This document shows, in pieces, positions 5,246 to 44,028 of a stretch of 47,900 bases of DNA (position 1 is the stretch's first letter; each line of letters opens with the position of its first letter). The notes under the pieces are model-generated. The model worked only from the letters and a program-made list of their open reading frames with translations. It searched no databases and was not told the DNA's origin. A program made the position numbers and the translations under genes. Source of the DNA: Thioalkalivibrio versutus (GTDB taxonomy: Bacteria; Pseudomonadota; Gammaproteobacteria; Ectothiorhodospirales; Ectothiorhodospiraceae); contig NZ_MVAR01000012.1 of NCBI RefSeq assembly GCF_001999325.1, forward strand, positions 1 through 47,900, given 5' to 3'.

Positions 5246-5488
5246 TTTGCCCGGGAGCCGCGAGGGCGGCAAGGGCTCAGGCCGTCCTTTCGCGCCGCGC
5301 CTCCACCCAAGCGGCAAGGGCTTCTCTAATGTCCCGGGCTCGTTGATGTCTCACAACATCACGACGTGTGGCGCTGTTATATTGTGCGGCGTTTCGCTGA
5401 CCCATCGCGGGGTCAACGCGAAACATGTCGCCGACCAGCAGATCGACGGGTCGGGACTCACTCACGACCCACGATAGGGACTGGCTGA

Positions 5489-6442
5489 ATGGCACAGGGC
5501 GCACCGACCCCGCTGAGGTCGCTTTCATCCGAAAAAGTGGTGGGTCTGAGCACGCTGTTCGTCGCCCTGGCGGCGTTTTCCTGGGGGCTGTCCGGCGGGA
5601 TTGGGGGCATTCTCACGGGCCAGGGTTGGGATCCGGTGGTGGTGTCGTTCTACCGGGGTGCGATCGGGCTGCTGTTCGTGCTCGCCTGGCTTGCGATTCG
5701 TCCGCATGGCAGCGGATTGGCCAGTGGCCGCATGTGGTTCTGGTCGGCGATCGCCGGCCTGGGGGTCGCGGGCAACTTCACCTTCTACTTCCTGAGCATC
5801 GCCGAGGGCAGTGTCGCGGTGGCTGCGACACTGATGTACTGCGCGCCGGTATTCGTTTATCTCGTCTCTTTTGCACTCGGGCTCGAAAAACCCACCCTGT
5901 TCAAGTGGGTCGCGATCGCGATGGTCATGCTGGGTGTGGTGCTGCTGACGGGTATTTACGATATCGGCGCCGGTGACGTGACGCCGATTGCCGCTGGGGC
6001 CGGTCTGGCTTCCGGGCTGTCCTACGCGGTCTTTATCTTCGGCTTCAAGTTCGCGGCACCCCACGGCAGCCCGCAGGCGATTCTGGTGATCGCGTTCGCG
6101 GTCCTGGTCGTCATCCTGTTCGGGCTGGGCGATCCCGACCAGACCGTGGCTGTGCTGAGCACGCCGAGCTGGCCGTTGTTCGTGATACTGGGCGTGCTGG
6201 GCGCCGGGTTGTCGTTCATTTTCTACATCATCGGCCTGAACCACACGGCACCCGCCGTCGCGTCCATCGTGGCGATGGTCGAGCCGGTGACTGCGTCGCT
6301 GTTCGGCGTGGTGTTCCTGAGCGAGACCCTGGGCGCACTCCAGGTCTTTGGCATGGGATTGATCCTGCTGACCGTGACCGCCCTGAGCGTCTATTCCAGC
6401 TCGCAGAAGCAATCGGTTCCGCCCCAACCTCGCGCTGATTAG
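5489..6442 (+). CDS. EamA/DMT-superfamily transporter
   Basis: The product has 317 residues with about ten hydrophobic segments in two five-helix halves, the arrangement of the drug/metabolite transporter superfamily. The first half begins LFVALAAFSWGLSGGIGGIL and the second near DVTPIAAGAGLASGLSYAVF. The late motif SIVAMVEPVTASLFGVVFLS is typical of the C-terminal EamA repeat (conserved Glu-Pro). It is an inner-membrane permease, probably an exporter of small metabolites; the substrate cannot be read from sequence. The start at 5489 has only a weak purine-rich site. No linked gene indicates the cargo. Confidence 0.88.
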   Translation: MAQGAPTPLRSLSSEKVVGLSTLFVALAAFSWGLSGGIGGILTGQGWDPVVVSFYRGAIGLLFVLAWLAIRPHGSGLASGRMWFWSAIAGLGVAGNFTFYFLSIAEGSVAVAATLMYCAPVFVYLVSFALGLEKPTLFKWVAIAMVMLGVVLLTGIYDIGAGDVTPIAAGAGLASGLSYAVFIFGFKFAAPHGSPQAILVIAFAVLVVILFGLGDPDQTVAVLSTPSWPLFVILGVLGAGLSFIFYIIGLNHTAPAVASIVAMVEPVTASLFGVVFLSETLGALQVFGMGLILLTVTALSVYSSSQKQSVPPQPRAD

Positions 6443-6645
6443 CGCTTGAACCTGCTCCGGGGAGCTGGATTCGTGGGGTCCGATATCGCCTTCACGGCTC
6501 ATCTTCCGACAATGTTTCGAAAGAGACAAAGGGATGAGAATGAGGGTCAAGATGCACTCATCCCTGCTAATCTGAACTAGGGATCGGGCGGCGCGGACGT
6601 CTCCCGGTGTTTACTGGTCAGCGGCCTTGCCCAAGGAGCCCAGTG

Positions 6646-8115: not shown

Positions 8116-8140
8116 AGTCGCTGCCGGCAGGGCTAAGAAT

Positions 8141-8165
8141 TCTACCTGCGGATTTAGCAGGTCGG
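8141..8165. repeat. 25-bp dispersed repeat, copy 2
   Basis: TCTACCTGCGGATTTAGCAG followed by GTCGG differs at 3 of 25 positions from 4641-4665. ACCTGC-ggattta-GCAGGT is a perfect 6-bp stem here. It lies 26 bp after the amidohydrolase stop and could fold in its transcript. The remaining 250 bp up to 8418 contain short GGGCAAGGT-type repetitions (8187-8196 and 8236-8245) but no gene. Confidence 0.5.
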
Positions 8166-8417
8166 CGGGTTGGCGGCGGATGGGCAAAGGGCAAGGTTCG
8201 ACCCCGAGCATTTCGGCTGGCAGTGGATGGGTAAAGGGCAAGGTCAGCCCCGGTCATCTCGCCTGCGCGAGGATGGGACTCGGGGGGCGGCCTACTCGAG
8301 CGCGCAGAGGCAGTCGGCTCCGTCTCAAGCAGGCGCTGAGTGGCGCCTGGGCCTGGAACCGGCCCGGTGCAGTACGGGATGGTGGCGTGGAATCACGCCA
8401 AATATCGGTTGATCAGG

Positions 8418-8751
8418 CTATCGTGGGTGGTAGATGGTCACCAGGACTGACGCGTCTTCCAGCGCCTTGAGGGCATGGGGCTGACCCCCATTCAGATAGA
8501 TCAGGGCGCCGGCGGTGAGTCGCTGGACCTTGTCTTCCCCGATACGGAAATCGACCGAGCCTTCCAGGCATTGGACCGTGATCTCTCCGGGTACGGCGTG
8601 ATCACTGAACTCTTCGCCTTTGGGGAGCACGACGCGGAAGACATTGCAAATGTTCCGAACGCAGCAGCGTTGCACTTTTTGATTCGCGCAGTTCTTTCCC
8701 CAGGGGGCGAACGTCCACGATTTCTCCGGGTGTGGCGTGGTGCAATGCCAT
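8418..8751 (-). pseudogene. Small cupin-domain protein, frameshifted
   Basis: Translation from ATG 8751 gives MALHHATPGEIVDVRPLGKE, continues through LLRSEHLQ, then leaves frame near 8650. The adjacent frame continues VFRVVLPKGEEFSDH, VPGEITVQCLEGSVDFRIG, GALIYLNGGQPHALKALED and ASVLVTIYHPR, ending at 8418. Joined, this is a typical single-domain cupin of about 110 residues; 334 bp equals 111 codons plus one extra base. One surplus base in TTGCAATGTC explains the break. The family's motif HxH is reduced here (SDHAVPGE). It lies just downstream of, and probably in operon with, the 8795 gene. The break may be real decay or a sequencing error. Confidence 0.8.
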
Positions 8752-8794
8752 GTTGTGCTCCAGCAGTTTTCTGCAATGGCGGGGCGCGCTGGCC

Positions 8795-10069
8795 TCAGCG
8801 GAGTGGGCGCACCTCGGCGATGTCGGACAGCGCGAGTGGCACGACCATGTAGCCGCTGCCGAAGCGTCGGCGCACACGGATGTGCTCCTCCTCGATTCCG
8901 AGCAGTTCGCCATCGCGGGTGCGCCCGTCGGCGAGCTGGATGCGGATATTGCGGCCGATGTGGTCGCCCAGGGCATTCAGTGCGATGTTCGGGACAGGCG
9001 ATAAATCGGGTGCCGTGGTCGAGGCGGCCGGGCCCGTGTTCAAGTTCGTATTCTCGGTCGTCGTCGGTCTGGCGGGGCCCGGGGTGACGGGGCGCAGATC
9101 GACGCGACCGTAGTGTTTTTCGGCCACGGTCAGGCTGGACTCGACCCGACGTAGCAGGTGGGTCGGGGTGTCGACGTTGGCCCAGAGCAGCGCCGGGTTG
9201 TCGATCGGGCCAATGCGCAGCGAAACGTCCTTGGGATCCTCGATGAAGCGTCCGTAGGCATCGACCATCGTGGGCCCGGGCTGCACGCCGAAGGGGCGCC
9301 AGGCCTCGACCCAGGCGCCTTTGTGGTGCTCGGTATAGTCCTCGAGAGCCATCTCCATCTCGTTCGCGCAGAATTCCATCAGTGCAGGGTAGTACCCCCG
9401 GTCCGCGTACCCCACGGTCAAGGATTGTAGCGAGGCGGTCATTAGCGCCGGAGCGAGATCGCGGGCCCGGTTCGAGGCGGCCTGGATGTCGAAGCGTCCG
9501 GTGGAGGTGCCCTGGCCCAGTGGGCCCATGCCGAACGTGCTGTGCACGGTCAGACTGTTGCGGTCCTCTTCGAGGTGGTAGTGGGCGCCGAAGTCCAGCG
9601 GGATGTCGCGATAGCCGAGTGCGGCCATCAGGGCGTCCGGCGGGGCGGCTTGATAGGCCCCGCAGCCGGCGGTGTCGAGCCACAGCGCAGGCGTGTCGCC
9701 CTGCGCGCCTGTGGCGATGCCGGCCGGCAGGGTCAGCCCGTGCACGGAAAACCCGAGCTGCCGCGGCAGGCGTCGGGCATCCAGCGTGTGCCGAAGCCGG
9801 GCGAGCCGCCACAGGTTTCCGGCTTCCAGGGTGATGCGGTCAGCGCGCATGCGGCCGATGGCCGTGTTGTTGGGTTCAAACAGCAGCCCGTTGACGTGCA
9901 GTTCGCCCCCGAGGCCGATACCGACGTCGGAGTAGTGCAGCGTGCCGAGCGGCTGGAGCATCTCCACCATGTCGTCGAGCTTCTGCTCGACCTGCCGGAC
10001 CTCGTAGTGGTAATACCCGACACCGGCGGCGGCGACCACGAGGCCGCCCACGATCAGTTTCCCTGGCAT
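8795..10069 (-). CDS. DUF945-like membrane-anchored protein with Sm-like C-terminal domain
   Basis: The product has 424 residues. An N-terminal membrane anchor (LIVGGLVVAAAGVGYYHY, about 4-21) is followed by a large extracytoplasmic domain reminiscent of DUF945/AsmA-like proteins: repeats of GTLHYSDVGIGLGGELHVNG type and VDLRPVTPGPARP near 340. A low-complexity Thr/Asn/Pro linker leads to a final block of about 70 residues (IGRNIRIQLADGRTRDGELL ... VVPLALSDIAEV) that looks like an Sm/LSm-type small barrel. The start at 10069 has gggagag nine bases upstream; an in-frame ATG eight codons earlier is less good. Role unknown, probably at the cell envelope. The cupin fragment follows 43 bp downstream. 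Confidence 0.65.
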   Translation of the reverse strand: MPGKLIVGGLVVAAAGVGYYHYEVRQVEQKLDDMVEMLQPLGTLHYSDVGIGLGGELHVNGLLFEPNNTAIGRMRADRITLEAGNLWRLARLRHTLDARRLPRQLGFSVHGLTLPAGIATGAQGDTPALWLDTAGCGAYQAAPPDALMAALGYRDIPLDFGAHYHLEEDRNSLTVHSTFGMGPLGQGTSTGRFDIQAASNRARDLAPALMTASLQSLTVGYADRGYYPALMEFCANEMEMALEDYTEHHKGAWVEAWRPFGVQPGPTMVDAYGRFIEDPKDVSLRIGPIDNPALLWANVDTPTHLLRRVESSLTVAEKHYGRVDLRPVTPGPARPTTTENTNLNTGPAASTTAPDLSPVPNIALNALGDHIGRNIRIQLADGRTRDGELLGIEEEHIRVRRRFGSGYMVVPLALSDIAEVRPLR

Positions 10070-19989: not shown

Positions 19990-22446
19990 ATGATGCATAA
20001 CTCCGAAACCCAGTCATCCGGGGGCGCCTCGGATGCCCTTGATACGGACTTCTTGAAGAAACTTCCGAAGGTGGTCGATGACCTCAGGGACCGCTGGTAC
20101 ATCGTGCGCCAGCGCGGGTTCCGGCCACAGGATGTGATGGATGTCCGGGGCATAACGCGGGCTTTGGTGAGTGGTCTGACCGGCTCGGCAATGGATGACT
20201 CCTTCACCACCGCTCGCCGGATTGATGAGCGTCTGGCGCAGTATGCGGCCACCACGGTGCGTCCCAACCCGGCCGATCTCGAGACCATTGGAGCCCTGGT
20301 TCTGCGGCTGCGCGAAAGTGTGCGGGGCGAAGTGCCGCTCGCCGCGTACGACGCCGAGACGGCCGCGCCGGCCCCGACGATCCAGCGGCCTCTGGTATGC
20401 CTGTTCGGGGCGGATGCTTCGCCGGAGAGCGAGACCGCCTTGCTGCTGGGAATACACGGCTATGCGGTTATTGCGTGCGCCGACGAGGCAGCCCTGCCGC
20501 ATCCGGGCGACGCGACCCGCCCCGACGTGATGATCGCCGAACTGGCGGCGATGGATGACGCCGAACTGTCGCGGCTTGTCCATCTGCGTGACGGTTCGCT
20601 GCCGGGCGTGCCGCTGGTCATCCTGGCGCCAGTCAGCGGAGGAGCAGCAGGACAGGCCGGGCTGCATGTGCTCCGCGCCGGTGCCGATGCCCTGTTGAAG
20701 CGGCCCGTGACGGACCTGGACTTGGTGGGGGCCATACGCGGGCTGGTGCAGGACGACCTGATCCCGTACCGGGTGCTGATGCTCGGCGCGGACGCCGGGT
20801 CTGTCGAGGAGCCGGCGTCCATGTTGCGGCAGGCCGGGCTGGAGGTAGGTATCAGCGTGGACCCCCTGGAGGTGGTTGGTCGAGTGGCGGATGGTCGGCC
20901 AGAGGCGGTAGTGATCGCCGGGTCTTTGCCGGGGGTCACCGCGGAGGAGATCGGCCGCCTGCTGTTGCCCCACGACATGTCTCTGGATATCCCCCTGTTG
21001 GCTTTGGGTGTGCCGGGGGCACCGGATGGCTCGCCCGGCAATGGGATGCTCGACTACCTGCCGCCCGCCAGTACCGATGCGGACATCGTCTGCCGGGTTC
21101 GTGCGCGGGCTGCATGGCACCGCCGTATTCGGTCGCGGGCGCACGGCCAGGCCGAGCTTGGTCGTGCGCCGACACTGGTGCATCCCCTGGAGTTCGAGCG
21201 TCTCGTGTTATGCCATCTCGACGGCCTTGATCCTGCGCAGGGGGCCGCGGTGGTCCTGCAGTGGGCGTTCGATGACCCGGGGGCACTCCTCGCCCGCCTC
21301 GGTCCGATCGACTACCAGCAGACTCGCAACCAGTTCGTGCGCCGGATTCGCGAGGCCATGGCCCCGGGTGATCTGGTGGTGAGCCATGGTGAGGCGGGCT
21401 TGATTGCGATTGCCCAACGCAAGGACCTGAAGGAGATCGTCGAACTCGCGCAACGCGTGCATGAGCAGACTGCCGGTGCCGCTGTGTCCGGTCTCCCCGG
21501 TGGAACCGTTGCGGCCAGCATCGGTGTCGGACAGGTGATGTGGGAACGTCCGCTCAAGGCTCTGGACCGTGCCATCGCGCTTTGTAGCGAGGCCCGCGAC
21601 AGCGGCGGCAACCGGGTGCAACTGGATCCGGAGTTGCTGACGCCGAATCTGGAGGTCGAAGAGCGCAATCACTGGCGGCGCACCATTGCCCATGCCATCA
21701 AGGAAAAGCGACTGTTCCCGGTGTTTCAGCCGATCGCGAATATCAGTGGGTCCGATCAGATCGAGCGTCACGAGGTGCTGCTGAGAATCCGCGAGCCGAA
21801 TGGCAAGATCCTGTTGCCGGGACAGTTCGTCGAGATGGCGGAACGGCTCGAGCTCGACCGGCATCTCGATCGCTGGGTCATCAGTAATGCCCTTGGCATC
21901 CTCAATGCCCGAACCGTGAGCCATCCGCAGTCGCGGCTGTTTGTGAAGATGTCCCGCGGCTCGCTCGGCGATTCGAGCTTTTTGCCCTGGCTGGGCAAAC
22001 AACTTGCCGTGCACCCGGTATGGCCGGGAAGCCTGGTTCTGCAACTCCGCGAGGGCGATGTGCTGGGCCGTGTGGATCAGCTCTCGGCCTTCGGCGATGC
22101 GCTTCGGGATTTGGAGATCCGCATCGCCCTGGAACACTTTGGCGCCAGTACCGATGCCGATACGCGCCGGATGCTTGCCGAAATGCGGCCCGACTACGTC
22201 AAGATCGCGCGGGAACTCACCGTGGGGCTGCATCACTCCGCCACGCCTTCGTTACGGCTCAACGGCCTCCTGGGTCAGGCCAAGGAGGTCGGTGCCTACA
22301 CCATGGCCAGCTATGTGGAGGATGCCGATGGTCTGGCCTTGTTGTGGCAGGCCCAGATCGACCTGGTTCAGGGGAACTTCATCCGGCAGCCAGAGGAAGA
22401 GCTGCGCTACGAACTCGAGTTTCCAGGCCTGGACGACGCGGGCTGA
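19990..22446 (+). CDS. Degenerate GGDEF/EAL regulator with pseudo-receiver domains (FimX-like)
   Basis: The product has 818 residues. The order is: an HPt-like helical region (about 1-115) lacking the phospho-His; two receiver-like domains (about 130-255 and 256-375) whose acceptor Asp is Glu (VMIAELAAM) or Ala (VVIAGSLPG); a diverged GGDEF-like domain (about 390-545) without GGDEF; and an EAL-like domain (about 560-810). In the EAL part the first Glu remains (EVLLRI), but Asn of NLS is Lys (VKMSRGS), DDFG is EHFG, and the later Glu of AEGVET is gone (MASYVED). It should be catalytically dead and act as a c-di-GMP receptor or scaffold, like FimX or LapD. Tandem ATGs start it without an obvious ribosome site. 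Confidence 0.8.
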   Translation: MMHNSETQSSGGASDALDTDFLKKLPKVVDDLRDRWYIVRQRGFRPQDVMDVRGITRALVSGLTGSAMDDSFTTARRIDERLAQYAATTVRPNPADLETIGALVLRLRESVRGEVPLAAYDAETAAPAPTIQRPLVCLFGADASPESETALLLGIHGYAVIACADEAALPHPGDATRPDVMIAELAAMDDAELSRLVHLRDGSLPGVPLVILAPVSGGAAGQAGLHVLRAGADALLKRPVTDLDLVGAIRGLVQDDLIPYRVLMLGADAGSVEEPASMLRQAGLEVGISVDPLEVVGRVADGRPEAVVIAGSLPGVTAEEIGRLLLPHDMSLDIPLLALGVPGAPDGSPGNGMLDYLPPASTDADIVCRVRARAAWHRRIRSRAHGQAELGRAPTLVHPLEFERLVLCHLDGLDPAQGAAVVLQWAFDDPGALLARLGPIDYQQTRNQFVRRIREAMAPGDLVVSHGEAGLIAIAQRKDLKEIVELAQRVHEQTAGAAVSGLPGGTVAASIGVGQVMWERPLKALDRAIALCSEARDSGGNRVQLDPELLTPNLEVEERNHWRRTIAHAIKEKRLFPVFQPIANISGSDQIERHEVLLRIREPNGKILLPGQFVEMAERLELDRHLDRWVISNALGILNARTVSHPQSRLFVKMSRGSLGDSSFLPWLGKQLAVHPVWPGSLVLQLREGDVLGRVDQLSAFGDALRDLEIRIALEHFGASTDADTRRMLAEMRPDYVKIARELTVGLHHSATPSLRLNGLLGQAKEVGAYTMASYVEDADGLALLWQAQIDLVQGNFIRQPEEELRYELEFPGLDDAG

Positions 22447-22614: not shown

Positions 22615-23256
22615 ATGATTCTTCTGGTTGTATACAGTTTCGCGGTAGTGGCCGCATTGGTGATGCTGTTGTCGCGACGGCGCGCCGCGCTTGGCGTGCG
22701 GGTGTTGTATGCCTTCGCGACCTTGGCGCTGCCCTTTGCCACGGTATTGCTCGCGCATGCGCTGAACGGTGGCGAGGCATCCGGGGCGGGGGCTTTCGGG
22801 CTGGTGCTGTTCGCGTTCCTTGGGAGCCCGTTGTTGATGTGGTGGGTGTTTGCCTATCGCCACCCTGCAGGGGTCTGCGAGGGTCCTGCTGAGGGGGGCA
22901 TCGCGCCGGGCTCACCGCCGCCGGAGGCGGCCCGATCGGCCGCGCCGGATGCCGTCCAGGAGTCCGCGGTGGCCGCGGCACAGCGGTCGACTGTGCGGAT
23001 GCACCCCTTTCATCGTGCGGCGCTGGTGCAGACGCCGGGGTCGCTCCTGCTGGGGTTGGGACTGGCCGAGAAGCTCGGGGATAATGACGGTCCGATCTTT
23101 CCGTTTCTGGCGAATGGCTGGCTAGTCGACGGCATGCTGGTGCTGGGGACGGTTCTGTTTGCCGTATCGCTCCGTATGATCGTCGCGGAACTGCGCCGGC
23201 CGTCCGCACCGCAACGGGATACCGATGCGCTGGGAATCCGTAACCCGCGTCGCTGA
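22615..23256 (+). CDS. Hypothetical membrane protein
   Basis: The product has 213 residues. Three hydrophobic segments occupy the first 85 residues (ILLVVYSFAVVAALVMLLS; LYAFATLALPFATVLLAHAL; FGLVLFAFLGSPLLMWWVFA). A Pro/Ala/Glu-rich linker (about 88-120) follows, then one or two further segments (GSLLLGLGLAEKL; GMLVLGTVLFAVSLRMIVAE). I do not recognise a family. The start has gcaggg/gggagg seven bases upstream. It lies 168 bp behind the FimX-like gene on the same strand, so co-transcription is possible. Role unknown. Confidence 0.65.
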   Translation: MILLVVYSFAVVAALVMLLSRRRAALGVRVLYAFATLALPFATVLLAHALNGGEASGAGAFGLVLFAFLGSPLLMWWVFAYRHPAGVCEGPAEGGIAPGSPPPEAARSAAPDAVQESAVAAAQRSTVRMHPFHRAALVQTPGSLLLGLGLAEKLGDNDGPIFPFLANGWLVDGMLVLGTVLFAVSLRMIVAELRRPSAPQRDTDALGIRNPRR

Positions 23257-23667
23257 GCCACCCGCAGACGCCGTTCGCCGCGACCGCTTCTCGTACGCCC
23301 GTTGACTGTTCCGGTGGACCGGATCTTGTGAGCTCTCTAACGGAACGGTGCTTCCGGGTATGACGGATCGGTAGCAAGCCTCTCCGGCGCGGGCTATGTT
23401 CTGGGTGGAGCCGCTGTGGTGGACGAATTCCTCGACTCGCGGGATCGGCCCTAAAACGGTCGGTCGGCGCGGACGGAGGACTTGTGTGGGGTCGTGGGTA
23501 TGGATGAGTAGCGTGGTGCGGAGGGTTTCGTCATGCAGGGATACGTCGTCGGCAGGGTGGAATCCGATTCGCGGGCAGGGCCTGGCTTGCGGTACCCATG
23601 ACGTCGGTGGTTGTCACCGCGGCGGGCTGGAGAACGAAGGTATGACCACCGCACAGAGTGACCCCGC
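23257..23667. other. Intergenic region without a recognised gene
   Basis: Open frames on both strands here have poor codon use and no motifs. Near the end, ATG at 23642 preceded by gaagg opens a nine-codon frame (MTTAQSDPA) whose TGA overlaps the TTG start of the fusion gene at 23668. It may be a leader peptide providing translational coupling, or chance. Confidence 0.35.
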
Positions 23668-25191
23668 TTGAAGGTGCTCGTCATCCTCGGCCACCCGCGC
23701 ACCGATAGCCTGTGCGGGGCGCTGGCCGAAGCCTACAGCGAAGGGGCGCGCGCGGCCGGGACCGAGGTGCAGTCCCTGAATCTGGCGAGTCTGGAGTTTG
23801 ATCCGCACGTCCACACCCCTTCGCCCAATCAGCAGCCACTCGAAAAGGATCTGGAGGCCGCACGCGGCCTCGTCGCGTGGGCTGATCATCTGGTGTTTGT
23901 CTATCCCACCTGGTGGGGCACCATGCCGGCGCTGCTCAAGGGTTTTCTGGACCGGATCATGACGCCGGAATTCGCCTTTCGCTCCTGCGAGGGCGGTACC
24001 GGGTACGAAGGGTTGCTGCAGGGCCGCTCGGCGCAACTGATCACGACCATGGATACGCCGCCGCTGATCCACCGGCTGGTGTATCGCCAGCCAGGTGCCA
24101 ATGCGATGGCGCGCGCCACGCTGGGGTTCTGTGGGGTCCGGCCGGTGCGCTCGTTGATGTTCGGTTCGGTGCGCCATAGCGACGAGGCCCAGCGCAAAGC
24201 CTGGTTGCAGCGCGCACGCCAGGAAGGGCTGCGTCTGGCCAGGGGGCGCGAAAGTGCGGGCGAGTGGCTTGCGCACAAGGCCGGTGCCTGGCTCCAGGCG
24301 TTGCGCTTGCAGTTCTATCCGATGACCTTTGTGGCCTACGCGGTGGGGGCGCTGGTGGCCGCCCCGGCGGGTGGGGTGTTCGGCAATCCGGTGTTCTGGC
24401 TCGGGTACCTGTGCCTGTTTCTACTGGAAGTGGCCACGGTGCTGGTGAACGAACGCGTGGACTTTGGCTCGGACCGGCAAAACCGGTTCTATGGTCCCTT
24501 TACCGGTGGGTCGCGTGTGCTGGTGGAGGGGCTGTTGTCCGCGCGCGAGCTGGGCGTGGGGATTGCCGTCGCGCTGGTGGGCTTCGCCCTCGCGTTCGTT
24601 GCATTGCTGGCGACCGCACCCGGAGATTCGGGGCCGATCCTGCTGGTGATGGTCGTCCTCGCGATCCTGGCGATCGGCTACACGGCGGCGCCGCTGAAGC
24701 TTAGCTATCGGGGGCTGGGCGAGCTCGATGTCGCGCTGACGCACAGCCTGGGCGTGCTGCTGTGCGGCTATGTGTTCCTGGCGGGCGACTGGACCGCGTC
24801 CTTGCCCTGGCTGTTGAGCCTGCCGCTGTTCCTGGCGATTGTGCCGTCGATCACGCTATCCGGTATTCCCGACCGCGAGGCGGACGCCGCGGTGGGCAAG
24901 GGCACCCTGGCCGTGCGGCTGGGGAACGACGGTGCGCTTTGGGTGGCGTTGTCGTTCACCATCCTGGCGGCCGCCAGCGGCGCATTGTTCGATGCGCTGG
25001 GATGGGCGCAGGGGGCCTATGCCGGGATCGGGTATGTGGTGGTCCCGTATGCCGCCTGGTTGGTCTGGCTCCTGTGGCGTGCGCTGCACCGCCAAGGCCC
25101 CAGGGGGCGCATTGATGGATTAATGGCGGCATCCCTGGGCTATGTGCTCTGGTTCGGACTGTTCCCCCTGGTGAACCTGGTCATGGGCTGA
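23668..25191 (+). CDS. Fusion of flavodoxin-fold NAD(P)H:quinone oxidoreductase and UbiA prenyltransferase
   Basis: The product has 507 residues. Residues 1-195 are a flavodoxin_2/NQO-type oxidoreductase: VLVILGHPRTDSLCGALAEA and the flavin-contact block LVFVYPTWWGTMPALLKGFL. Residues 210-507 form a UbiA-superfamily domain with about eight membrane helices. They carry both prenyl-diphosphate motifs: NERVDFGSD (261-269) and DREADAAVGKGTLAVRLG (Asp402, Asp406), the latter close to MenA and chlorophyll-synthase types. The reductase domain should be cytoplasmic at the membrane face. Both halves keep their key residues, so the protein probably prenylates an aromatic or quinone acceptor and reduces or prepares it. 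The start is TTG at 23668, giving the normal NQO N-terminus; GTG 23674 is an alternative. The product is unknown. Confidence 0.88.
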   Translation: MKVLVILGHPRTDSLCGALAEAYSEGARAAGTEVQSLNLASLEFDPHVHTPSPNQQPLEKDLEAARGLVAWADHLVFVYPTWWGTMPALLKGFLDRIMTPEFAFRSCEGGTGYEGLLQGRSAQLITTMDTPPLIHRLVYRQPGANAMARATLGFCGVRPVRSLMFGSVRHSDEAQRKAWLQRARQEGLRLARGRESAGEWLAHKAGAWLQALRLQFYPMTFVAYAVGALVAAPAGGVFGNPVFWLGYLCLFLLEVATVLVNERVDFGSDRQNRFYGPFTGGSRVLVEGLLSARELGVGIAVALVGFALAFVALLATAPGDSGPILLVMVVLAILAIGYTAAPLKLSYRGLGELDVALTHSLGVLLCGYVFLAGDWTASLPWLLSLPLFLAIVPSITLSGIPDREADAAVGKGTLAVRLGNDGALWVALSFTILAAASGALFDALGWAQGAYAGIGYVVVPYAAWLVWLLWRALHRQGPRGRIDGLMAASLGYVLWFGLFPLVNLVMG

Positions 25192-28309: not shown

Positions 28310-29002
28310 ATGCGACGCGCGCACCTGCTCCCCTGGCTTCTGGTCCCCCTCTTGCTGACCGCCTGCGCCGGACTGGATGTCCGCGACTTCGGCCTCGATG
28401 GTGGTGATGATCGTGCCGAGGAGGCCATCCGCGAGGCCCTGCGGGTGGGCACCGAGCGCACGGTGGAGCGGACCGGCCGCGAGGATGGCTACTGGGGCAA
28501 CGCGTTGATCCGCATCGGTCTTCCGCCGGAGCTGGAGCAGGCCGGCGATACGCTGCGGCGCGTCGGGTTTGCCAGCCAGGTGAACGATCTGGAGCGGCGG
28601 ATGAATCGTGCGGCGGAGTCCGCAGCGCAGGAGGCCGTTTCGGTGTTTGTCAGCGCCATCCGCGGGATGCGGCCGGAGGATGTGTATGGGGTGCTGCGCG
28701 GGGCCGATGATGCCGCCACGCAGTATCTGCGCGATGCGTCGGAGTCCACCCTGCGCGAGCGCTACATGCCGATTGTGCAGGAGCAGATGGAGCGGGCCGA
28801 CGTCTATCGGGTGTACCAGCCGCTGCGCGACGCGGCGGGCCGCATTCCGGGCCTGTCGGGGCTGGACGTCGATCTGGATCGCTACGTGACCGATCACGCC
28901 CTGGATGGCCTGTTTACCATCCTCGCGGACGAGGAGCGGCGCATCCGCGAGGATCCGGCTGCCCGCACGACCCAGCTCCTGCGCGACTATTTCGGTCAGT
29001 AG
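28310..29002 (+). CDS. DUF4197 lipoprotein
   Basis: The product has 230 residues. A lipobox signal (WLLVPLLLTAC, Cys at about 19) predicts a lipoprotein. The remainder matches DUF4197: EEAIREALRVGTERTVERTG, NALIRIGLPPELEQAGDTLR, ERRMNRAAESAAQEAVSVFV and TILADEERRIREDPAARTTQ near the end. The family is widespread in proteobacteria and of unknown function, predicted periplasmic. ATG 28310 gives the signal peptide at once; in-frame sequence upstream does not look coding. The 3' end overlaps the convergent EAL gene by 7 bp. Confidence 0.88.
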   Translation: MRRAHLLPWLLVPLLLTACAGLDVRDFGLDGGDDRAEEAIREALRVGTERTVERTGREDGYWGNALIRIGLPPELEQAGDTLRRVGFASQVNDLERRMNRAAESAAQEAVSVFVSAIRGMRPEDVYGVLRGADDAATQYLRDASESTLRERYMPIVQEQMERADVYRVYQPLRDAAGRIPGLSGLDVDLDRYVTDHALDGLFTILADEERRIREDPAARTTQLLRDYFGQ

Positions 29003-30225
29003 CGCACCGCGTGCAGATGGCCGGTGTGCGGCGTGTCGGAAAGCAGCAGGGATGGGATCTCTTCGGCCCGTAACGGACGGGCGAAGTAGTAGCCCTGGAT
29101 GCAATCGAATTTTAGTTCGCGGCCGATTGCCAGTTGTTCCTTCGTCTCCACGCCCTCGGCGATGGTTCGCAGGCCCAGCGACTCGGCCAGCAGGACCATG
29201 CCGCGCGAGAGGTCGTGGGCGGACGGATCGATCCCGAGTCCGGAGATCAGCTGGCGGTCGATCTTGAGGATGTCGATGGGGAATCGGTTGAGGTAGGCCA
29301 GCGAGGAATAACCCGTGCCGAAGTCGTCGATGGCGAGCTGGATGCCGAGTGACTTGAGCTGCTTCAGGGCATCGGTGGCCGCGTCCATCGCCAGCACTGT
29401 CTCAGTCAGTTCGATGTGCAGCAACTCCGGCGGTAGCCGATGGCGATCCAGCGCGGCCGCGACATGGGCCGCCATTTCGGGGCGGACGATGTCGTGCGCC
29501 GAGAGGTTGATTGCCACGTACCATGCGGGGCGGCCGTGTTCGGCGGCCAGGGCGTTCCACGCACCGGCCTGGCGGCAGCCCTCGTCCAGGGCCAGATCGC
29601 AGATGTCATGAATTAACGTGGAATCCTCCGCCACGTCCAGAAACTCCGCCGGGGATAGTTCTCCGCGGATGGGGTGTTGCCAGCGGATCAACGCCTCGAC
29701 GCCGACATGGCGCTCCTGCGCCAGGGAGTAAATCGGTTGGTAGCGCAGGAAAAACTCGTTGTGCCGCAGCCCGCGCCGGATATCGAATTCTTGGCGCATG
29801 CGCCGCAGTTCCTCGGTGACCGGGTGCAGCGCGGGGATGACCAGCCAGGCCATCAGCTGGCCGATGCCGACGAAGAATCCGGTACGGGTTAGCCAGCGTT
29901 CGGTCTCCTGCGCGATGCCGGCGGTGACATCCACCGGCGTCATGGGTCCGGCCAGAACGCCGGCCACCAGGGCCACGACCAGGGCGGCGCCCGCGCCGAA
30001 GCGCGCCGCGGCGAACAGGATGGGCACGTAATAAAAGTGCGGGACGATACTGTCGGCGCCACCGGCGGTGTAGACGACCAGCCAGGACAGGGCGAGCCCA
30101 CCCAAGATCAGCAGACTAGCGCCCACGAAGGACATGCCCACCCAGGCACGGAGTGTGGTGCGGGCGAGGTAGTCGGTGTAGCGGATGCTACCGGTGGAGG
30201 GCAGGGCCGAGGGAAACCTGGACAT
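28996..30225 (-). CDS. Membrane EAL-domain c-di-GMP phosphodiesterase
   Basis: The product has 409 residues. Membrane helices occupy about residues 25-135 (including HFYYVPILFAAARFGAGAAL, a MASE/DUF4118-like pattern). A short linker leads to an EAL domain from about 155 to the end. All catalytic landmarks are present: EALIRWQHP, INLSAHDIV, LTETVLAM, IDDFGTGYSSLAYLNRF, ILKIDRQL, IAEGVETKEQL and QGYYFARPL. There is no GGDEF domain, so it should hydrolyse c-di-GMP. ATG 30225 has ggaagagcg upstream; an earlier in-frame start would add 19 polar residues. It is divergent from the HD-GYP gene across a 397-bp gap. Confidence 0.9.
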   Translation of the reverse strand: MSRFPSALPSTGSIRYTDYLARTTLRAWVGMSFVGASLLILGGLALSWLVVYTAGGADSIVPHFYYVPILFAAARFGAGAALVVALVAGVLAGPMTPVDVTAGIAQETERWLTRTGFFVGIGQLMAWLVIPALHPVTEELRRMRQEFDIRRGLRHNEFFLRYQPIYSLAQERHVGVEALIRWQHPIRGELSPAEFLDVAEDSTLIHDICDLALDEGCRQAGAWNALAAEHGRPAWYVAINLSAHDIVRPEMAAHVAAALDRHRLPPELLHIELTETVLAMDAATDALKQLKSLGIQLAIDDFGTGYSSLAYLNRFPIDILKIDRQLISGLGIDPSAHDLSRGMVLLAESLGLRTIAEGVETKEQLAIGRELKFDCIQGYYFARPLRAEEIPSLLLSDTPHTGHLHAVRY

Positions 30226-30622: not shown

Positions 30623-31864
30623 ATGCTGAAGAAGATCAAGTTGGAATATGTCGTCGAGGGAATGTACAGCCGGGAACTTTGTGGCTCGTGGATGGAGCAT
30701 CCCTTCTGGCGCACGCGCTTCCTGCTGGACGATGCGAAGGACCTCGCGACCCTGCGCGAAAGCAGTATCCGCGAGGTCTGGATCGACACCACCAGGGGGC
30801 GGGACGTGGAGGGTGCGGAGGCCGCCATGACGCCGGCGGAGCGGGATGCCGAGGTGCAGGCGTCGCTGCAGTCGGTCCCGGATGCCGGGCGCGATTGGGA
30901 GCCCGCGTCCATGCGGCAGGAACTGGACCGGGCGGCGACCATTTGCCGGAAATCGCGGCAGGCGATGACCTCGATCTTCGGGGAGGCGCGCATGGGCCGC
31001 GCCGTGGACACGGAACTGGCGCGCAAGGTGGTTGAGGAGATCACGGACTCGGTGGCTCGCAACTCCAGGGCGCTGGTCAGCCTGGCGCGGCTGAAGAACG
31101 CGGACGACTACACCTACATGCATTCGGTGGCGGTATGCGCGCTGATGGTGGCGCTGGGCCGCGAACTGGGACTTGAGGACGACGCGGTCCTGGCGGCTGG
31201 TGAGGCGGGTCTGATGCACGACATCGGCAAGGCCGCGATGCCGCTGGAGGTGCTCAACAAGCCGGGCAAGCTCACCCCCGAAGAGTTTGCCGTGATGAAG
31301 CGCCATCCGGCGGAGGGGCGTCGCATCCTGCAGGCGGCCGAAGAAGATCTCTACCCGGTCACCCTGGATGTCTGTCTGCATCACCACGAGAAGATGGATG
31401 GTTCGGGGTATCCCGAGGGGCTGGTTGGGGACCAGATTACCCTGTACGCAAAGATGGGCGCGGTCTGCGATGTCTATGACGCGATTACGTCGAATCGCCC
31501 TTACAAGGCGGGCTGGGACCCGGGCGACTCCATTCGCAAGATGGCCGAGTGGGCTCAAGGCCATTTCGATCCAACCGTTTTCCAGGCGTTCGTGAAGAGC
31601 CTGGGTATTTACCCCGTGGGGTCCCTGGTGCGACTGGAGTCCGGGCGGATCGGTGTGGTCGTGGACCAGTCCGCGGGTTCGTTGCTCAAGCCGGTCGTGA
31701 AGGTCTTTTACTCAACCAGCTCGGGGTGCCGCATTCCCCCGAAGGTCGTGGACCTCTCGGCCACGCACGTTCAGGAGGCTATTGCCGGGCGCGAGGACCC
31801 CACGGCATGGCCGTTCCCGGACCTGGATGAGCTTTGGTCCGGTCTGCCCGGCGGCAACGGATAA
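30623..31864 (+). CDS. HD-GYP c-di-GMP phosphodiesterase with DUF3391
   Basis: The product has 413 residues. The N-terminal DUF3391-type region (about 1-140) starts with KKIKLEYVVEGMYSREL. The HD-GYP domain (about 145-330) is complete: the first His in YTYMHSVAV, HDIGK at 199-203, KRHPAEGRRIL, and HHHEKMDGSGYPEGL at 253-267 with GYP intact. LYAKMGAVCDVYDAITSNRP closes the metal site. HD-GYP proteins hydrolyse c-di-GMP through pGpG to GMP. The C-terminus adds VGSLVRLESGRIGVVVDQS. The leader has no clear Shine-Dalgarno, only a GC hairpin. It lies among five other c-di-GMP genes. Confidence 0.93.
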   Translation: MLKKIKLEYVVEGMYSRELCGSWMEHPFWRTRFLLDDAKDLATLRESSIREVWIDTTRGRDVEGAEAAMTPAERDAEVQASLQSVPDAGRDWEPASMRQELDRAATICRKSRQAMTSIFGEARMGRAVDTELARKVVEEITDSVARNSRALVSLARLKNADDYTYMHSVAVCALMVALGRELGLEDDAVLAAGEAGLMHDIGKAAMPLEVLNKPGKLTPEEFAVMKRHPAEGRRILQAAEEDLYPVTLDVCLHHHEKMDGSGYPEGLVGDQITLYAKMGAVCDVYDAITSNRPYKAGWDPGDSIRKMAEWAQGHFDPTVFQAFVKSLGIYPVGSLVRLESGRIGVVVDQSAGSLLKPVVKVFYSTSSGCRIPPKVVDLSATHVQEAIAGREDPTAWPFPDLDELWSGLPGGNG

Positions 31865-32395: not shown

Positions 32396-32424
32396 GGGAG
32401 AGGCGGATTCAATCCGCGTCTCCC
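32396..32424 (-). terminator. Hairpin at the end of the flagellin gene
   Basis: GGGAGA-g-GCGGATT (from 32396) pairs with AATCCGC-g-TCTCCC (to 32424), about 13 bp apart from one bulge-like mismatch. It starts inside the TAG stop of the flagellin gene on the minus strand. A U-tract is lacking, but the position is that of a transcription terminator. Confidence 0.65.
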
Positions 32425-33545
32425 TAGGCGAGCAGGCGCAGGACGAGCTGGGGTGCCAGGTTGGCCTGGGCGAGGATGGCGATTCCGGCCTGCTGGAGGA
32501 TCTGGGCACGGATCAGGGCGGCGACCTCGGCGGCATAGTCGGCATCCAGGATGCGGCTGCGCGCGGCCTGGAGGTTCTCGCTGCCGATGCCCAGGTTGTC
32601 GATGGTGGACTCCAGGCGATTCTGCACCGCGCCCAGACGACTGTGCCGGGCGCTGATCTGGTCCAGGGCCTGGTCGATTCGGGCGAGTGCGTCGCTGGCG
32701 CCCTGTGCGGTGCCTAGGTCGATCCCGGCCAGGTGGCCCTCGACCGCGCGGGTGGCGGGCATGTCCAGGGCATTGAGACCGGCGTCGCCGCTTATGGTGA
32801 TGATCTCGCGTGCCGTGATGTCGAGGCGCCCATCGAAGCTGGCGGAGGCGCGGTTCGGGGCTCCGAGCTCGCGGTTGATGGCGGTGGCCAGGGCCGCGAC
32901 CGAGCCGTAATCCCCGTCCGGGACGTCGATCTCCGGCCGCTCGCCGATGCGGATGCGGAAGTCGCCCGCCACCGTGAACGGACCGCTGGCGAACAGCGCC
33001 GTCAGATCCCCCGACCGGCTGGTCGCGATCGCGCCGAGCTGGCGCGTGCCCATGCCGTCGCCGAGGTCCACGGCGAGGGTCTGCCCGGCGTTGGCACCAA
33101 CCTGAAAGAACGCGGTGGGGGCGCTGCCATCGAGCAGGGTGCGTCCATTGAAGGTGGTCTGGGTGACCACCCGGTCGGTCTCGGCCAGCAACTGCCGGGC
33201 CTCGCGGTTCAGGGCCTGGCGGTCGGAGGCGGACAGGGTGCCGTTGGCCGCCTGCAGGGCCAGCTCGCGGATGCGCTGGATGTTGCCGCTCATGGAGCCC
33301 AGCCCGCCCTCGGCGGTGCGGGCCAGCCCGATGCCGTCCTGCGCATTGCGCATGGCCTGGTTCAGGCCACGAATCTGGGTCGTGAAGCGTTCGCTGATGG
33401 CCATTCCGGCGGCATCGTCGCGCGCCGAGTTGATGCGGCGCCCGGAGGCCAGGCGTTGCAGGGCCACCTGCAGGGCGCCCTGGGAAAGCCGCAGGTTGCG
33501 CTAGGCGTTGAGCGACAGGAGATTCGTGTTGATCACCTGGGCCAT
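32424..33545 (-). pseudogene. fliC: Flagellin with an in-frame amber stop at codon 15
   Basis: From ATG 33545 the translation is MAQVINTNLLSLNA, TAG (33503-33501), then RNLRLSQGALQVALQRLASG and onward to codon 373. Flagellins have Gln here (NAQRNL), so a single CAG-to-TAG change explains the stop. The rest is intact: the N-terminal D0/D1 (INSARDDAAGMAISERFTTQ; ELALQAANGTLSASDRQALN), a mid-size variable region, and the C-terminal D1/D0 (RLGAVQNRLESTIDNLGIGS; QAGIAILAQANLAPQLVLRL). A sigma-28 promoter (33639-33665) and a terminator hairpin frame it. No good Shine-Dalgarno precedes the ATG. Restarting at a later GTG (33467) would lose D0 residues needed for filament assembly. It is silent unless amber is suppressed. 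Confidence 0.88.
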
Positions 33546-37230: not shown

Positions 37231-39711
37231 TCAGGCGCTGCGGCCAGGCTGCGTGGCGGCGGACGAAGCGGGCTCGGCGAGCATCCGTTGGCAGTCGGCG
37301 GCTGGCTGCGGGCGGGCAAACAGGAAGCCCTGCAGGGTCTGGCAACCGGCCTCCTGCAGGAAGGCTTGCTGCGCCTCGGTCTCCACGCCCTCGGCGACGG
37401 ATTCGAGGCCCAGGTTATCCGCGAGGCTGAGGATGGTGCGCACGATGGCGCCCGCGCTCGACTCGGTCTCCAGGTCCGCGGTGAAGCAGCGATCGATCTT
37501 CAGCACATCCAGCGGAAAACGGCGCAGATAGGCCAGCGATGAATACCCGGTGCCGAAGTCGTCCAGGGCCACGCGCACCCCGCGCTCGCGAAACTGGCCC
37601 AAGGTGCGGATGACCTGGTCGGTATCGGCCATCAGCATGCTCTCGGTGACCTCCAGCTCCAGGGCGTCCGCACTCAGCTGGGTGTGTTCCAATACCCGGT
37701 CGATGCTGTGCGCCATCTGGCGATCCCGAAACTGGGGGGCGGCCAGATTGACGGACACGCGGACCGGTGGCAGCCCGGCCTGATGCCAGGCCCGACACTG
37801 ACGGCAGGCCTCGGTCAGTATCCACTGGCCCAGTTCGACGATCAGCCCGGTCTCTTCGAGGATTGGGATGAAGGCGCCCGGCGAATGTACCGTGCCGGCG
37901 CCATCCTCCCAGCGCAGCAGGGCCTCGACGCCTACGATCCGGCCATCGCCGGCCGCCACCCGCGGCTGGTAGTGGAGAAAGAACCCTTCCTGGTGATCGA
38001 CCGCGCGCCGCAGTTGGCCCTCCAGCGAGACGCGTGTCCGCACGTCATTGTTGAGCTCGCCGGAACAGAACTGGATGGCATTGCCCTCGGTGCGCTTGGC
38101 CTGGTGCATCGCGGATTCGGCGCGGCGCATCAGGTCGGACGCATCCTGGGTGTCGTGGGGATACACGGCGACCCCGACGGAACCGGGCACATAGAGCTCG
38201 TGCTCGCCAGCCTTGATGATCTGGCGCAGCGGCTCCAGCAGGCGGGTGACCGCGCCGGCGACCGAGCCGGGAGACTCCACCGGGAGCAGAGCGCCGAACT
38301 CGTCGCCGCCCAGGCGTGCCAGTACGCCACCGACCGGCAGACGGTTTTCCAGGCGCCGGGCCACATGTTGCAGGACCTCGTCGCCGGTGGCCTGGCCCAT
38401 GCCTTCGTTGACGCTCTTGAAGCGATCCAGGCCAATGTGGGCCAGCACCAGCGGACGCCCCAGGCGCTCGGCATCGGCGACGGCCTGGTCGGCGCGTTCG
38501 GCAAAGCGGGTGCGGTTGGGCAGGCCGGTGAGGGCGTCGTGGTAGGTGATGAAATGGAGGTGGCGCTCCGCCTCGCGCCGTTCGGTGATGTCGTGCACCA
38601 CGCCGGCCATGCGTTGGGGCCGACCCTGGGCATCGAAGTCCACGCTCCCGCGCTGGTAGACGATGCGGACGGAGCCATCGGGGCGGACGATGCGGTGCTC
38701 GATGTCGTATTCCGGTCCTCCGGGGGTGAGGGCGTCGTCGACCGCGCGCTGCACGCGCTCGCGGTCGTCCGGGTGCACCGCCTGCATGAACGCCTCGTGG
38801 GTAGCACCCCATTGGTCGTATTCGAGGCCGAAGATGCGGAACACCTCGCTGGACCAGCGGATGCCCCCGGCGTCGAAGTCCGAGATCCAGTTGCCCAGAT
38901 GGGCGATCTGCTGCGCCTCCTGCAGTTCCGCCTCGCGCCGTTCCAGCGCCTCGCGCGCCGCGCGACGCTCGGTGATGTCCTGGAACGAGACCACGGCGCC
39001 GGTAACCCGGTTGCGGGCATCGAACAGCGGGGCGGCGTTGATCAGTACCGGGAACCCGTGTCCCGCGCGGCTCCAGAAATACTCCTCGCAGGCCTGCAAC
39101 GGCTCGCCGGTGCGCAAGACCCGGTAGACCGGGCATTCCGTGGCGGGGAAGGCCTGGCCGTCGGGCCGGCTGTGGTGCGACAGTTCGTGCGAATTGTGGC
39201 TCAGGGCCTCGTCTTCGCTGGCGAACCCGAGCAGTTCGCAGGCCGCGGGGTTGAGAAAGGTGTAGTTGCCATCGGCGTCGATGCCGAAGACGCCCTCGGC
39301 CAGGCTCCCCAGCAGGTTCTCGCGCAGGAGTTCGCCCTGCTTGCGGTCCGTGACGTCGATTCCGAGGGTCTGAAAATGGGTGATCTCGCCGGCCTCGTTG
39401 AAAAAGGCGCGGCTGGTCCAGCGGATCCAGCGGTCGGCCCCGTCGCCGCGGCGCACCGGGTTCTCGATGGTGCGCACGGGCGCGTCGGGGGTATAGCGCA
39501 GCAGGTCGGCGCGGTTCTCGGGCTGCCGCTCTTCGGGGAGGTCATGGATCCAGCGGTGCCCGAGCAGGCTTCCGGGGCGCGCCGCGAAGTACTCGTGGGC
39601 CGCCCGGTTGGCATAGAAGATGGTGGTGTCGGGTCGATAACAGATGATGATGAAGGGGTGGTTTTCCACCAGGTCCTCGTACTGGACCTTCACCCCGGAC
39701 GAATTGCTCAT
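37231..39711 (-). CDS. PAS-PAS-PAS-GGDEF-EAL c-di-GMP protein
   Basis: The product has 826 residues and is predicted cytoplasmic. Three PAS domains cover about 8-385 (ending near FQTLGIDVTDRKQ, VVSFQDITERRAA and MAGVVHDITERREA). The third resembles a PAS_3 fold (WSSEVFRIFGLEYDQ). GGDEF domain at about 390-560: HDALTGLPNRTRFAERAD and ARLGGDEFGALLPV, without a preceding RxxD I-site. EAL domain at about 570-815: EALLRWEDG, VNLAAPQFR, EVTESMLMADTD, LDDFGTGYSSLAYLRRF, LKIDRCF, VAEGVETEAQ and QGFLFARPQ, all catalytic residues present. Net activity is likely hydrolysis, with GGDEF as GTP sensor or cyclase. It lies 104 bp upstream of the MliC-like gene. Confidence 0.92.
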   Translation of the reverse strand: MSNSSGVKVQYEDLVENHPFIIICYRPDTTIFYANRAAHEYFAARPGSLLGHRWIHDLPEERQPENRADLLRYTPDAPVRTIENPVRRGDGADRWIRWTSRAFFNEAGEITHFQTLGIDVTDRKQGELLRENLLGSLAEGVFGIDADGNYTFLNPAACELLGFASEDEALSHNSHELSHHSRPDGQAFPATECPVYRVLRTGEPLQACEEYFWSRAGHGFPVLINAAPLFDARNRVTGAVVSFQDITERRAAREALERREAELQEAQQIAHLGNWISDFDAGGIRWSSEVFRIFGLEYDQWGATHEAFMQAVHPDDRERVQRAVDDALTPGGPEYDIEHRIVRPDGSVRIVYQRGSVDFDAQGRPQRMAGVVHDITERREAERHLHFITYHDALTGLPNRTRFAERADQAVADAERLGRPLVLAHIGLDRFKSVNEGMGQATGDEVLQHVARRLENRLPVGGVLARLGGDEFGALLPVESPGSVAGAVTRLLEPLRQIIKAGEHELYVPGSVGVAVYPHDTQDASDLMRRAESAMHQAKRTEGNAIQFCSGELNNDVRTRVSLEGQLRRAVDHQEGFFLHYQPRVAAGDGRIVGVEALLRWEDGAGTVHSPGAFIPILEETGLIVELGQWILTEACRQCRAWHQAGLPPVRVSVNLAAPQFRDRQMAHSIDRVLEHTQLSADALELEVTESMLMADTDQVIRTLGQFRERGVRVALDDFGTGYSSLAYLRRFPLDVLKIDRCFTADLETESSAGAIVRTILSLADNLGLESVAEGVETEAQQAFLQEAGCQTLQGFLFARPQPAADCQRMLAEPASSAATQPGRSA

Positions 39712-40473: not shown

Positions 40474-41499
40474 TCAGGGCCTGGGTTTGGCGGTGTCGGC
40501 CGCGGCAATGGCGACCCGGTCGCGCCCGCCGCGCTTGGCCTGGTACAGGGCGCGGTCCGCGGCCTCGACCACCTGCGTGGCGTGGCGGGTCTCGTTGGGG
40601 GTGAGGCAGCCGACCCCGGCGCTGGCGGTCAGTGTGGGGGCCACGCGGGAACTCGCGTGCGGGATCGCCTCCTCGCGGATGCGCTGCAGGCAGCGCTCGG
40701 CCAGCGCGTGGGCCGCGTCGATATCGGTGTCCGGCAGGATCAGTACGAACTCCTCCCCGCCCAGGCGTGCCAGCAGGTCCTGTTCGCGGCCGACGATGCC
40801 GGCGAGGCAGGTGGCGATCCGCTGCAGGCAGCCGTCGCCGGCCGGGTGGCCGTAGCGGTCGTTGTATTCCTTGAAATGGTCGATATCGAGCATGATGGCG
40901 GAGAGCGGGCGCTGGTCGCGCCGGGCGTGGGCCCACTCGCGTTCGAGTACGAGGTCGAACTGCCGACGGTTGGCGATGCCGGTGAGCGAGTCGCGGTAGG
41001 ACAGGGCCTCCAGTTCGGACTTCAGGCGCAGTAGTTCTTCTTCCTGTTGCTTGCGCTCGCTGATGTCGAACATGAAACCGACCAGGGCCTCCACCTCGCC
41101 GTCCCTGCGCACCACGTGGACCACATCGCGGATCCAGATGTAGTGCCCGTCCCGTGTCAGGGCGCGGTAGTCCGCCTCGTGGTCGACCCCGGACTGCGAC
41201 TGGGTGACGCAGAAGTTGACGACCGATTCGCGATCGTCCGGGTGCATGCGCTCCACCCAGTCGTCGATGCTGACCCAGCTCTCCGGCGTCCAGCCCAGCA
41301 ACGCCTCGATCTGCGGGCCGATGTAGGTGAAGCGCATGGTGGCCCAGTCGATCCTCCACGGGATGGCGCGGGTGGATTCCAGCAGCGTGCGATAGACGGT
41401 GCTGTCCGGTTCCATCTCGGGGTGCGTGGTGGGCGATTCGATGCCCGGTCCCGGGGCCGTCCCTGTGTTCTCCGGCTGGTCGGCTGCGGTCGCGTTCAT
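40474..41499 (-). CDS. PAS-GGDEF diguanylate cyclase
   Basis: The product has 341 residues, predicted soluble. A PAS_3-type domain covers about 35-155 (RFTYIGPQIEALLGWTPESW; MHPDDRESVVNF; LVGFMFDISERKQQEEE). The GGDEF domain occupies about 170-330: LSYRDSLTGIANRRQFDLVL, IMLDIDHFKEYNDRYGHPAG and LARLGGEEFVLILPD. The signature is intact (GGEEF) and an inhibitory RxxD site (REQD) lies five residues before it, so an active, product-inhibited cyclase is expected. It lies 56 bp after the OmpA-like gene and may be the third gene of that minus-strand transcription unit. The start has aaggac upstream. Confidence 0.93.
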   Translation of the reverse strand: MNATAADQPENTGTAPGPGIESPTTHPEMEPDSTVYRTLLESTRAIPWRIDWATMRFTYIGPQIEALLGWTPESWVSIDDWVERMHPDDRESVVNFCVTQSQSGVDHEADYRALTRDGHYIWIRDVVHVVRRDGEVEALVGFMFDISERKQQEEELLRLKSELEALSYRDSLTGIANRRQFDLVLEREWAHARRDQRPLSAIMLDIDHFKEYNDRYGHPAGDGCLQRIATCLAGIVGREQDLLARLGGEEFVLILPDTDIDAAHALAERCLQRIREEAIPHASSRVAPTLTASAGVGCLTPNETRHATQVVEAADRALYQAKRGGRDRVAIAAADTAKPRP

Positions 41500-43898: not shown

Positions 43899-44028
43899 AT
43901 TCACCAGGGGCCGGGATCGAACGGATTGAGAGTAGCACGGGGCGGACCTCAGGCCGGTACCCGTAATGTCACGGAGATTCGGCAACGTCTATGGTCAGAA
44001 TGAGGAGTCCGTGTCGGGAGGTGTTGCC

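Follow-up and report, generated by a model that had tools for sequence, protein, structure and literature searches.

A single open frame of Thioalkalivibrio versutus joins an NAD(P)H:quinone-reductase-like flavodoxin domain to a UbiA prenyltransferase domain, and its product belongs to a two-domain Flavodoxin_2-UbiA family that is widespread yet patchily carried. Both halves are of known kinds, and their combination is a conserved variant for which searches aimed at it turned up no description among the open PMC papers listed, as judged from titles and the opening parts of abstracts. We predict that the protein is a self-sufficient enzyme that would reduce a quinone and then prenylate the hydroquinone. 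The two activities, their order and a shared substrate are all predictions, and we consider the chances of this reading to be evenly balanced.

The gene lies at positions 23668..25191 (+) of the window, the 47,900-nucleotide stretch of DNA that was analysed. It encodes 507 aa in one frame, with a TTG start and a stop ending at 25191; relatives have ATG, GTG or TTG at the equivalent position. The N-terminal flavodoxin domain (residues 1-185; 23668..24222, +) was recognized by Pfam, fold match and profile match, with Flavodoxin_2 (PF02525) scoring 135.3 bits against a cut-off of 27 (E 2.9e-39). A helical and variable linker of about residues 186-205 (24223..24282, +), placed from model helices 173-192 and 197-212 and from dN, leads to the UbiA domain (about residues 206-507; 24283..25188, +). 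The latter was supported by Pfam, predicted model and fold match, UbiA (PF01040) scoring 77.1 bits at residues 224-476 (cut-off 34.2, E 1.7e-21). It carries Asp-rich motif I, N261-x3-D265-x3-D269 (24448..24474, +), and Asp-rich motif II with a lysine, D402-x3-D406 and K411 (24871..24900, +). The first-pass annotation had described a flavodoxin domain joined in frame to a UbiA domain with both Asp-rich motifs, and the single 507-residue frame, which passes both Pfam cut-offs, bears this out. A short ATG frame runs across the fusion start codon only in the window, L003 and L004 among 13 rows inspected.

In the source genome (2.83 Mb, 58 contigs), the whole protein had just one further match, to a flavodoxin that stands alone and shares 34% identity across residues 2-188. 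We searched a first set of 58 genomes, made up of the own genome and others from its genus, family and class. The full-length fusion was present in 15 of them. Thirteen are among the 30 genomes of the genus, counting the own genome, and the remaining two belong to a different genus of the family and to a different family of the class. The join is therefore not an assembly error, an explanation that the first-pass annotation had raised. An alignment of the 15 intact proteins has 507 columns, with identities to the window protein of 56-98%. Five further genomes of the set gave long partial matches, three of them on contigs shorter than 7 kb and two with an internal stop, and a sixth had just a 33-residue stretch matching the fusion. 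A stop lies inside the partial match at L018 (in G011, a single-contig genome) and at L020 (in G030, where the match covers the flavodoxin half alone, 51%). The fusion gene thus seems to be decaying in some lineages, these two among them.

A collection of named genomes, which overlaps the 58-genome set, contained 342 stretches encoding a relative, of which the best 80 were analysed. At least 467 residues were matched in 79 of these 80, and the other one, L082, stops at a contig edge. These best 80 relatives are 48-98% identical to the window protein, which excludes a chance likeness, and they represent 79 genomes, L064 and L071 both lying in one MAG. By origin, they divide into Gammaproteobacteria (40), Betaproteobacteria (14), Halobacteria (7), Holophagae (6), Alphaproteobacteria (4), Hydrogenophilia (3), Bacteroidota (3), and Balneolota, Gemmatimonadota and Planctomycetota, each with one MAG in which mis-binning is possible. 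They span seven phyla and both prokaryotic domains, with Haloarchaea among them. The closest among the named relatives are from Thioalkalivibrio strains AKL19 (98%) and ALMg11 (94%). A draw of genomes from the class yielded the fusion in 4 of 274 (own included), and of 300 plasmid records that gave a match, one covered at least 80% of the query. The arrangement had been called unusual. This holds for its sparseness within the class but not on a larger scale, as it recurs in at least 80 loci. Our analysis flags a family for which the one annotated record examined, that of a relative on a Roseinatronobacter plasmid, gives only the name NAD(P)H-dependent oxidoreductase.

We modelled the whole protein with AlphaFold2, using an alignment of 47 family members (pLDDT 92.5, pTM 0.85). 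The N-terminal half of the model matched 3lcm (Z 24.3, 184 residues, 1.9 A, 31% identity) and NQO1/NQO2 (Z about 23) in VIA-align, and a profile of the flavodoxin half found 3lcm among PDB sequences at E 1.9e-34. The Pfam score and the predicted fold thus place it among Flavodoxin_2 proteins of the quinone-reductase type. The Flavodoxin_2-type fold is common to the Smu.1420 NADPH:quinone oxidoreductase (3lcm, 4f8y) and to NQO1/NQO2, but their solved chains (188-273 long) have no UbiA domain, unlike the fusion. In NQO2, a glycine pair and a Tyr, which we take to be active-site loop residues, align with M128-D129 and I134 of the window protein, so that the combination that defines NQO1/NQO2 proper is absent from the window protein. 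All 81 rows keep M128 and D129, but many family members have a Tyr at 135, one position past I134, and the Tyr may be present in these.

Because the listed Foldseek matches held the N-terminal half only, the UbiA half was folded on its own (pLDDT 91.9). Its model matched UBIAD1 (8djk, Z 23.1), ApUbiA (4od4, Z 22.6) and AfUbiA (4tq4, Z 22.5), which are effectively tied, and more distantly a membrane phosphoribosyltransferase (Z 17.0) and isoprenyl diphosphate synthases (Z about 13-14). The C-terminal half of the whole-protein model likewise matched UBIAD1 (Z 23.3) and also archaeal UbiA in VIA-align. UBIAD1 was the sole PDB sequence found by the UbiA-half profile at E up to 1 (E 4.5e-6). The Pfam score, the two Asp-rich motifs and a predicted fold over most of the domain assign this half to the UbiA superfamily (PF01040). 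UBIAD1, the human MK-4 synthase, has the UbiA fold in common with it over 266 aligned residues at about 15% identity. In a HMMER alignment read by eye, UBIAD1 has an Asp at D265 but no Asn at N261 and no Asp at D269. Unlike the fusion, UBIAD1 itself is not known to have a reductase domain.

The best NCBIfam match of the UbiA half was the DHNA polyprenyltransferase model (MenA, PRK06080 group), at 59.3 bits against an equivalog cut-off of 346, and TIGR00751 gave 27.4 against 102.15 bits. By these cut-offs the half does not count as a MenA equivalog, and the PRK06080 group model (301 positions) has no flavodoxin domain, unlike the fusion. No listed NCBIfam UbiA-type model reached its cut-off, and TIGR01474 (4-hydroxybenzoate octaprenyltransferase) gave no match at E up to 0.001, a level at which 16 families matched. 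The own genome encodes three PF01040 proteins, namely the fusion, a true UbiA (L032), which passes the TIGR01474 cut-off (322.2 versus 275.45 bits), and L033, which passes the cut-off of a decaprenyl-phosphate phosphoribosyltransferase model. L032 shares the superfamily and the motif I spacing N-x3-D-x3-D with the fusion, yet it is a separate gene. As the genome keeps a true UbiA, L033 is of the phosphoribosyltransferase type, and no PF02621 protein was found in this genome, the fusion is unlikely to be the housekeeping lipoquinone prenyltransferase.

Trees of the two halves were built by a quick method from 41 fused rows. These were the window and 40 loci chosen from the 80, the rest being near-duplicates, truncated or not picked. 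The flavodoxin tree also held 17 standalone flavodoxins (L022 added, L153 left out), and the UbiA tree 23 standalone proteins (21 of 26 fetched, plus L032 and L033 of the own genome). With all 23 standalone rows in the UbiA tree, the fused state needs two changes, as L032, with an end branch of 8.87, joins a fused row. When L032 and L033, both on very long branches, were removed, the fused rows made up one side with an SH-aLRT of 99. The free flavodoxin tree also needs two changes, with standalone L150 and L151 inside the fused set, although the data did not reject a single clade of fused rows (p-AU 0.697). Distances in one half correlated with those in the other at 0.756, a value that none of 2,000 permutations reached, and 25 of 38 splits were in common. 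A phylogeny of each half, proposed in the first-pass annotation as a check, has the fused rows clustering and the half-trees largely in agreement.

As far as these sequences tell, this pattern would fit one fusion event followed by co-inheritance and horizontal spread, with the UbiA half perhaps lost in some lines. Halomonadaceae fall into two separate clades of the half-trees, and the patchy spread of the fusion looks horizontal. L150 and L151 are the standalone flavodoxins nearest to the fused ones, and they may have lost a UbiA half. We also looked for reductase and UbiA genes as pairs, using tblastn with fused-family queries on flanks of up to 1.5 kb. A partner was near none of 26 standalone UbiA loci and none of 17 standalone flavodoxin loci.

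The two halves are conserved to comparable extents. N261, D265 and D269 of motif I are invariant in 81/81 sequences, as are Y338, W82, W83, D95, R96, M128, D129 and P131. In motif II, D402 is kept in 80/81, D406 in 79/81 and K411 in 80/81; the exceptions are an Asn at D406 in one row, and L082, cut by a contig end. In pairwise comparisons with eight relatives, the flavodoxin half (residues 2-190) had a dN/dS of 0.09-0.21 and the UbiA half (residues 206-507) one of 0.11-0.22. In six of the eight, dS of the halves was about 0.7-1.3, near saturation; the two closest pairs (dS 0.09-0.25) gave a like picture. Both halves are under purifying selection, to a similar degree. In the linker (residues 191-205), dN was above that of either half in all eight comparisons, on just 15 codons.

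These data bear on whether the halves work together or are merely tethered. The fusion might pair a membrane-anchored quinone reductase with a prenyltransferase whose substrates have nothing to do with those of the reductase, or the flavodoxin half might be a redox regulator of the UbiA half, as KefF is of KefC. The first-pass annotation had called the flavodoxin domain KefF-like, and the KefF fold (3l9w) does match the N-terminal half of the model at Z 20.4. Its match to the KefF model PRK00871 is weak, at 33.2 bits against an equivalog cut-off of 210, and membership in that family does not stand. The variable linker also suits uncoupled halves, as does the grouping of standalone L150 and L151 among fused rows in the unconstrained analysis, which suggests that the flavodoxin half may work alone. 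However, the join has been kept over seven phyla, the half-trees largely agree and the halves are similarly constrained, and we regard this alternative as quite unlikely.

In the reduce-then-prenylate reading that we prefer, the flavodoxin domain, which presumably sits on the cytosolic side like the UbiA cavity, would take two electrons from NAD(P)H and convert a quinone to a hydroquinone. The UbiA domain would use its two Asp-rich motifs to hold Mg2+ and thereby bind an isoprenyl diphosphate, and would attach the prenyl chain to the hydroquinone coming from the flavodoxin domain. Having reduction and prenylation in one chain would keep the reactive intermediate local. The process may be likened to menadione reduction followed by UBIAD1 prenylation, in a single membrane-bound polypeptide, and a role in salvage or remodelling of small quinones appears more likely than one in the main ubiquinone pathway.

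PMC4398444 reports that UBIAD1 microsomes made no MK-4 without DTT, which its authors assumed to reduce menadione to the hydroquinone, and states that reduction is required for prenylation. UBIAD1 thus needs an acceptor reduced beforehand, whereas the fusion could supply the reduction by its NQO-type domain. Because the motif residues are kept, both halves are under purifying selection and UBIAD1 needs a reduced acceptor, it is a reasonable inference that both activities act on one aromatic substrate, as the first-pass annotation had proposed. Counting for the reduce-then-prenylate reading are the complete domains, the near-invariant motifs, the purifying selection on both halves, the quinone-reductase and UBIAD1/archaeal-UbiA folds, the UBIAD1 hit of the UbiA-half profile, the largely agreeing half-trees, the DTT requirement of UBIAD1, the true UbiA kept in the genome and a second, separate redox-UbiA fusion. 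Counting against it are the lack of quinone-pathway genes among the window genes scanned, the few conserved neighbourhoods, the replaced NQO2 glycine pair, the lack of reductase-UbiA pairs among the loci searched and the position of L150 and L151. Carriers of the fusion presumably include both ubiquinone-using and menaquinone-using lineages, so no single substrate is indicated.

Neighbours in the window include a LigB-type dioxygenase, a lactate permease, c-di-GMP proteins and a MOSC protein. Besides the fusion, the window has 43 called genes, of which 27 were scanned with Pfam; 22 had a match and five had none. No quinone-biosynthesis family was among the matches, so that within these 27 genes the result agrees with the earlier remark that no ubiquinone or menaquinone genes lie nearby. 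Rather than a lipoquinone precursor, the acceptor could be another reducible aromatic or a polyene, and the product a specialised meroterpenoid or modified carotenoid, which this result would suit. The UbiA-type NCBIfam models listed, all below their cut-offs, and the patchy, seemingly horizontal spread, as in Halomonadaceae, are also consistent with such an acceptor. Set against it, among named models the UbiA half comes closest to a DHNA polyprenyltransferase, and UBIAD1 is the one solved sequence that its profile retrieved. We consider this possibility distinctly improbable.

We clustered the neighbours across the 80 loci and the window, with genes taken from a codon-usage gene caller. No family adjoined the fusion in most loci, and operon logic was set aside as a guide. 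Two families of SRPBCC (Polyketide_cyc) proteins, which have a lipid-binding fold, do recur, whereas any other neighbour in common was limited to closely related loci, those of Geothrix for instance. The first SRPBCC family is divergent at position -1 in 12 of 80 loci by gene calls; an HMM search gave 13, including two from a single MAG. The second occurs in five of 80 loci, from Thiobacillus or Hydrogenophilales, at -1 in four and at +1 in one; the HMM scan recovered four of the five. An identity of the SRPBCC neighbour with COQ10 is not supported, as it matched only Polyketide_cyc in Pfam, fell far below NCBIfam cut-offs, and its PDB matches were uncharacterised proteins. In related Thioalkalivibrio and Halomonas, the first SRPBCC gene has an open frame that runs divergently from the fusion. 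For this gene in the window, a home-made profile matched 23335..23475 (-) at E 1.3e-4, within an open frame at 23125-23613 (-) that likely keeps a decayed SRPBCC remnant, and a degenerate trace is found in the closest relatives too (L039, E 5.9e-11; L038, E 0.0021). In two gammaproteobacterial MAGs, a gene of about 500 aa ends 3-6 bases upstream of the fusion (L095, 1823-3319; L099, 4945-6525), the L095 copy having no Pfam match.

The recurrent, sparse SRPBCC neighbours would suit a reverse order, in which a prenylquinone is first made, or only bound, by the UbiA half, and the reductase half then keeps this membrane quinone reduced, for antioxidant or redox-poising purposes. Quinone reductases of like fold guard against quinone stress, as described for Campylobacter MdaB in PMC8765430. 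A protein that only bound quinones could do without the Mg2+/diphosphate motifs, yet these are near-invariant. In the window, moreover, the SRPBCC gene appears to have degenerated and is hence dispensable here. We judge the reverse order unlikely.

The UbiA-half profile also retrieved a second redox-UbiA combination. L128 (1255-2928, -) encodes 558 aa, in which a PNPOx_N domain (37.0 bits against a cut-off of 28.1) precedes a UbiA domain of the MenA-like kind; its relative L167 is 73% identical, and both come from one genus, in two of the 274 class genomes. Like the flavodoxin fusion, L128 and L167 have a redox-type domain before a MenA-like UbiA, but the redox fold is different. We take PNPOx_N of L128 to be a split barrel of the flavin/F420 type, and mycobacterial F420H2-dependent quinone reductases have a split-barrel fold too. 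The N-domain of L128 has weak, below-cut-off matches to F420-dependent PPOX-class models, and PMC3567243 describes F420H2-dependent quinone reductases in mycobacteria. On the UbiA tree, the UbiA half of the PNPOx_N fusion groups with standalone rows, so it probably arose by an independent fusion event. This suggests convergent redox coupling to UbiA enzymes, by Flavodoxin_2 and by PNPOx.

A wider reading combines these points. The fusion proteins might form a widespread reduce-then-prenylate family that turns free, possibly scavenged, quinones into membrane prenylquinones, with redox-UbiA coupling invented at least twice. Such a family would be the bacterial and archaeal counterpart of menadione reduction and UBIAD1 in one polypeptide. 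We advance this joint reading tentatively, as possible rather than probable. The source of hydroquinone for UbiA enzymes in general is easily overlooked, even though UBIAD1 needs a reduced acceptor according to PMC4398444. The fusion, maintained in seven phyla, makes it possible to ask directly whether reduction and prenylation are linked. It could expose an unrecognised route of quinone salvage in haloalkaliphiles and other microbes, and could serve as a tool for producing prenylated hydroquinones.

Several signalling genes also occur in the window. c-di-GMP-type genes (EAL, GGDEF, HD) lie at 19990-22446, 28996-30225, 30623-31864, 37231-39693, 40474-41499 and 42342-43904, and a flagellin gene at 32424-33467. 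In strain AKL19 (L038), 3644-5938 and 6414-8798 seem, from the protein starts compared by eye, to be two neighbouring copies of an EAL-type gene, of which the window has one.
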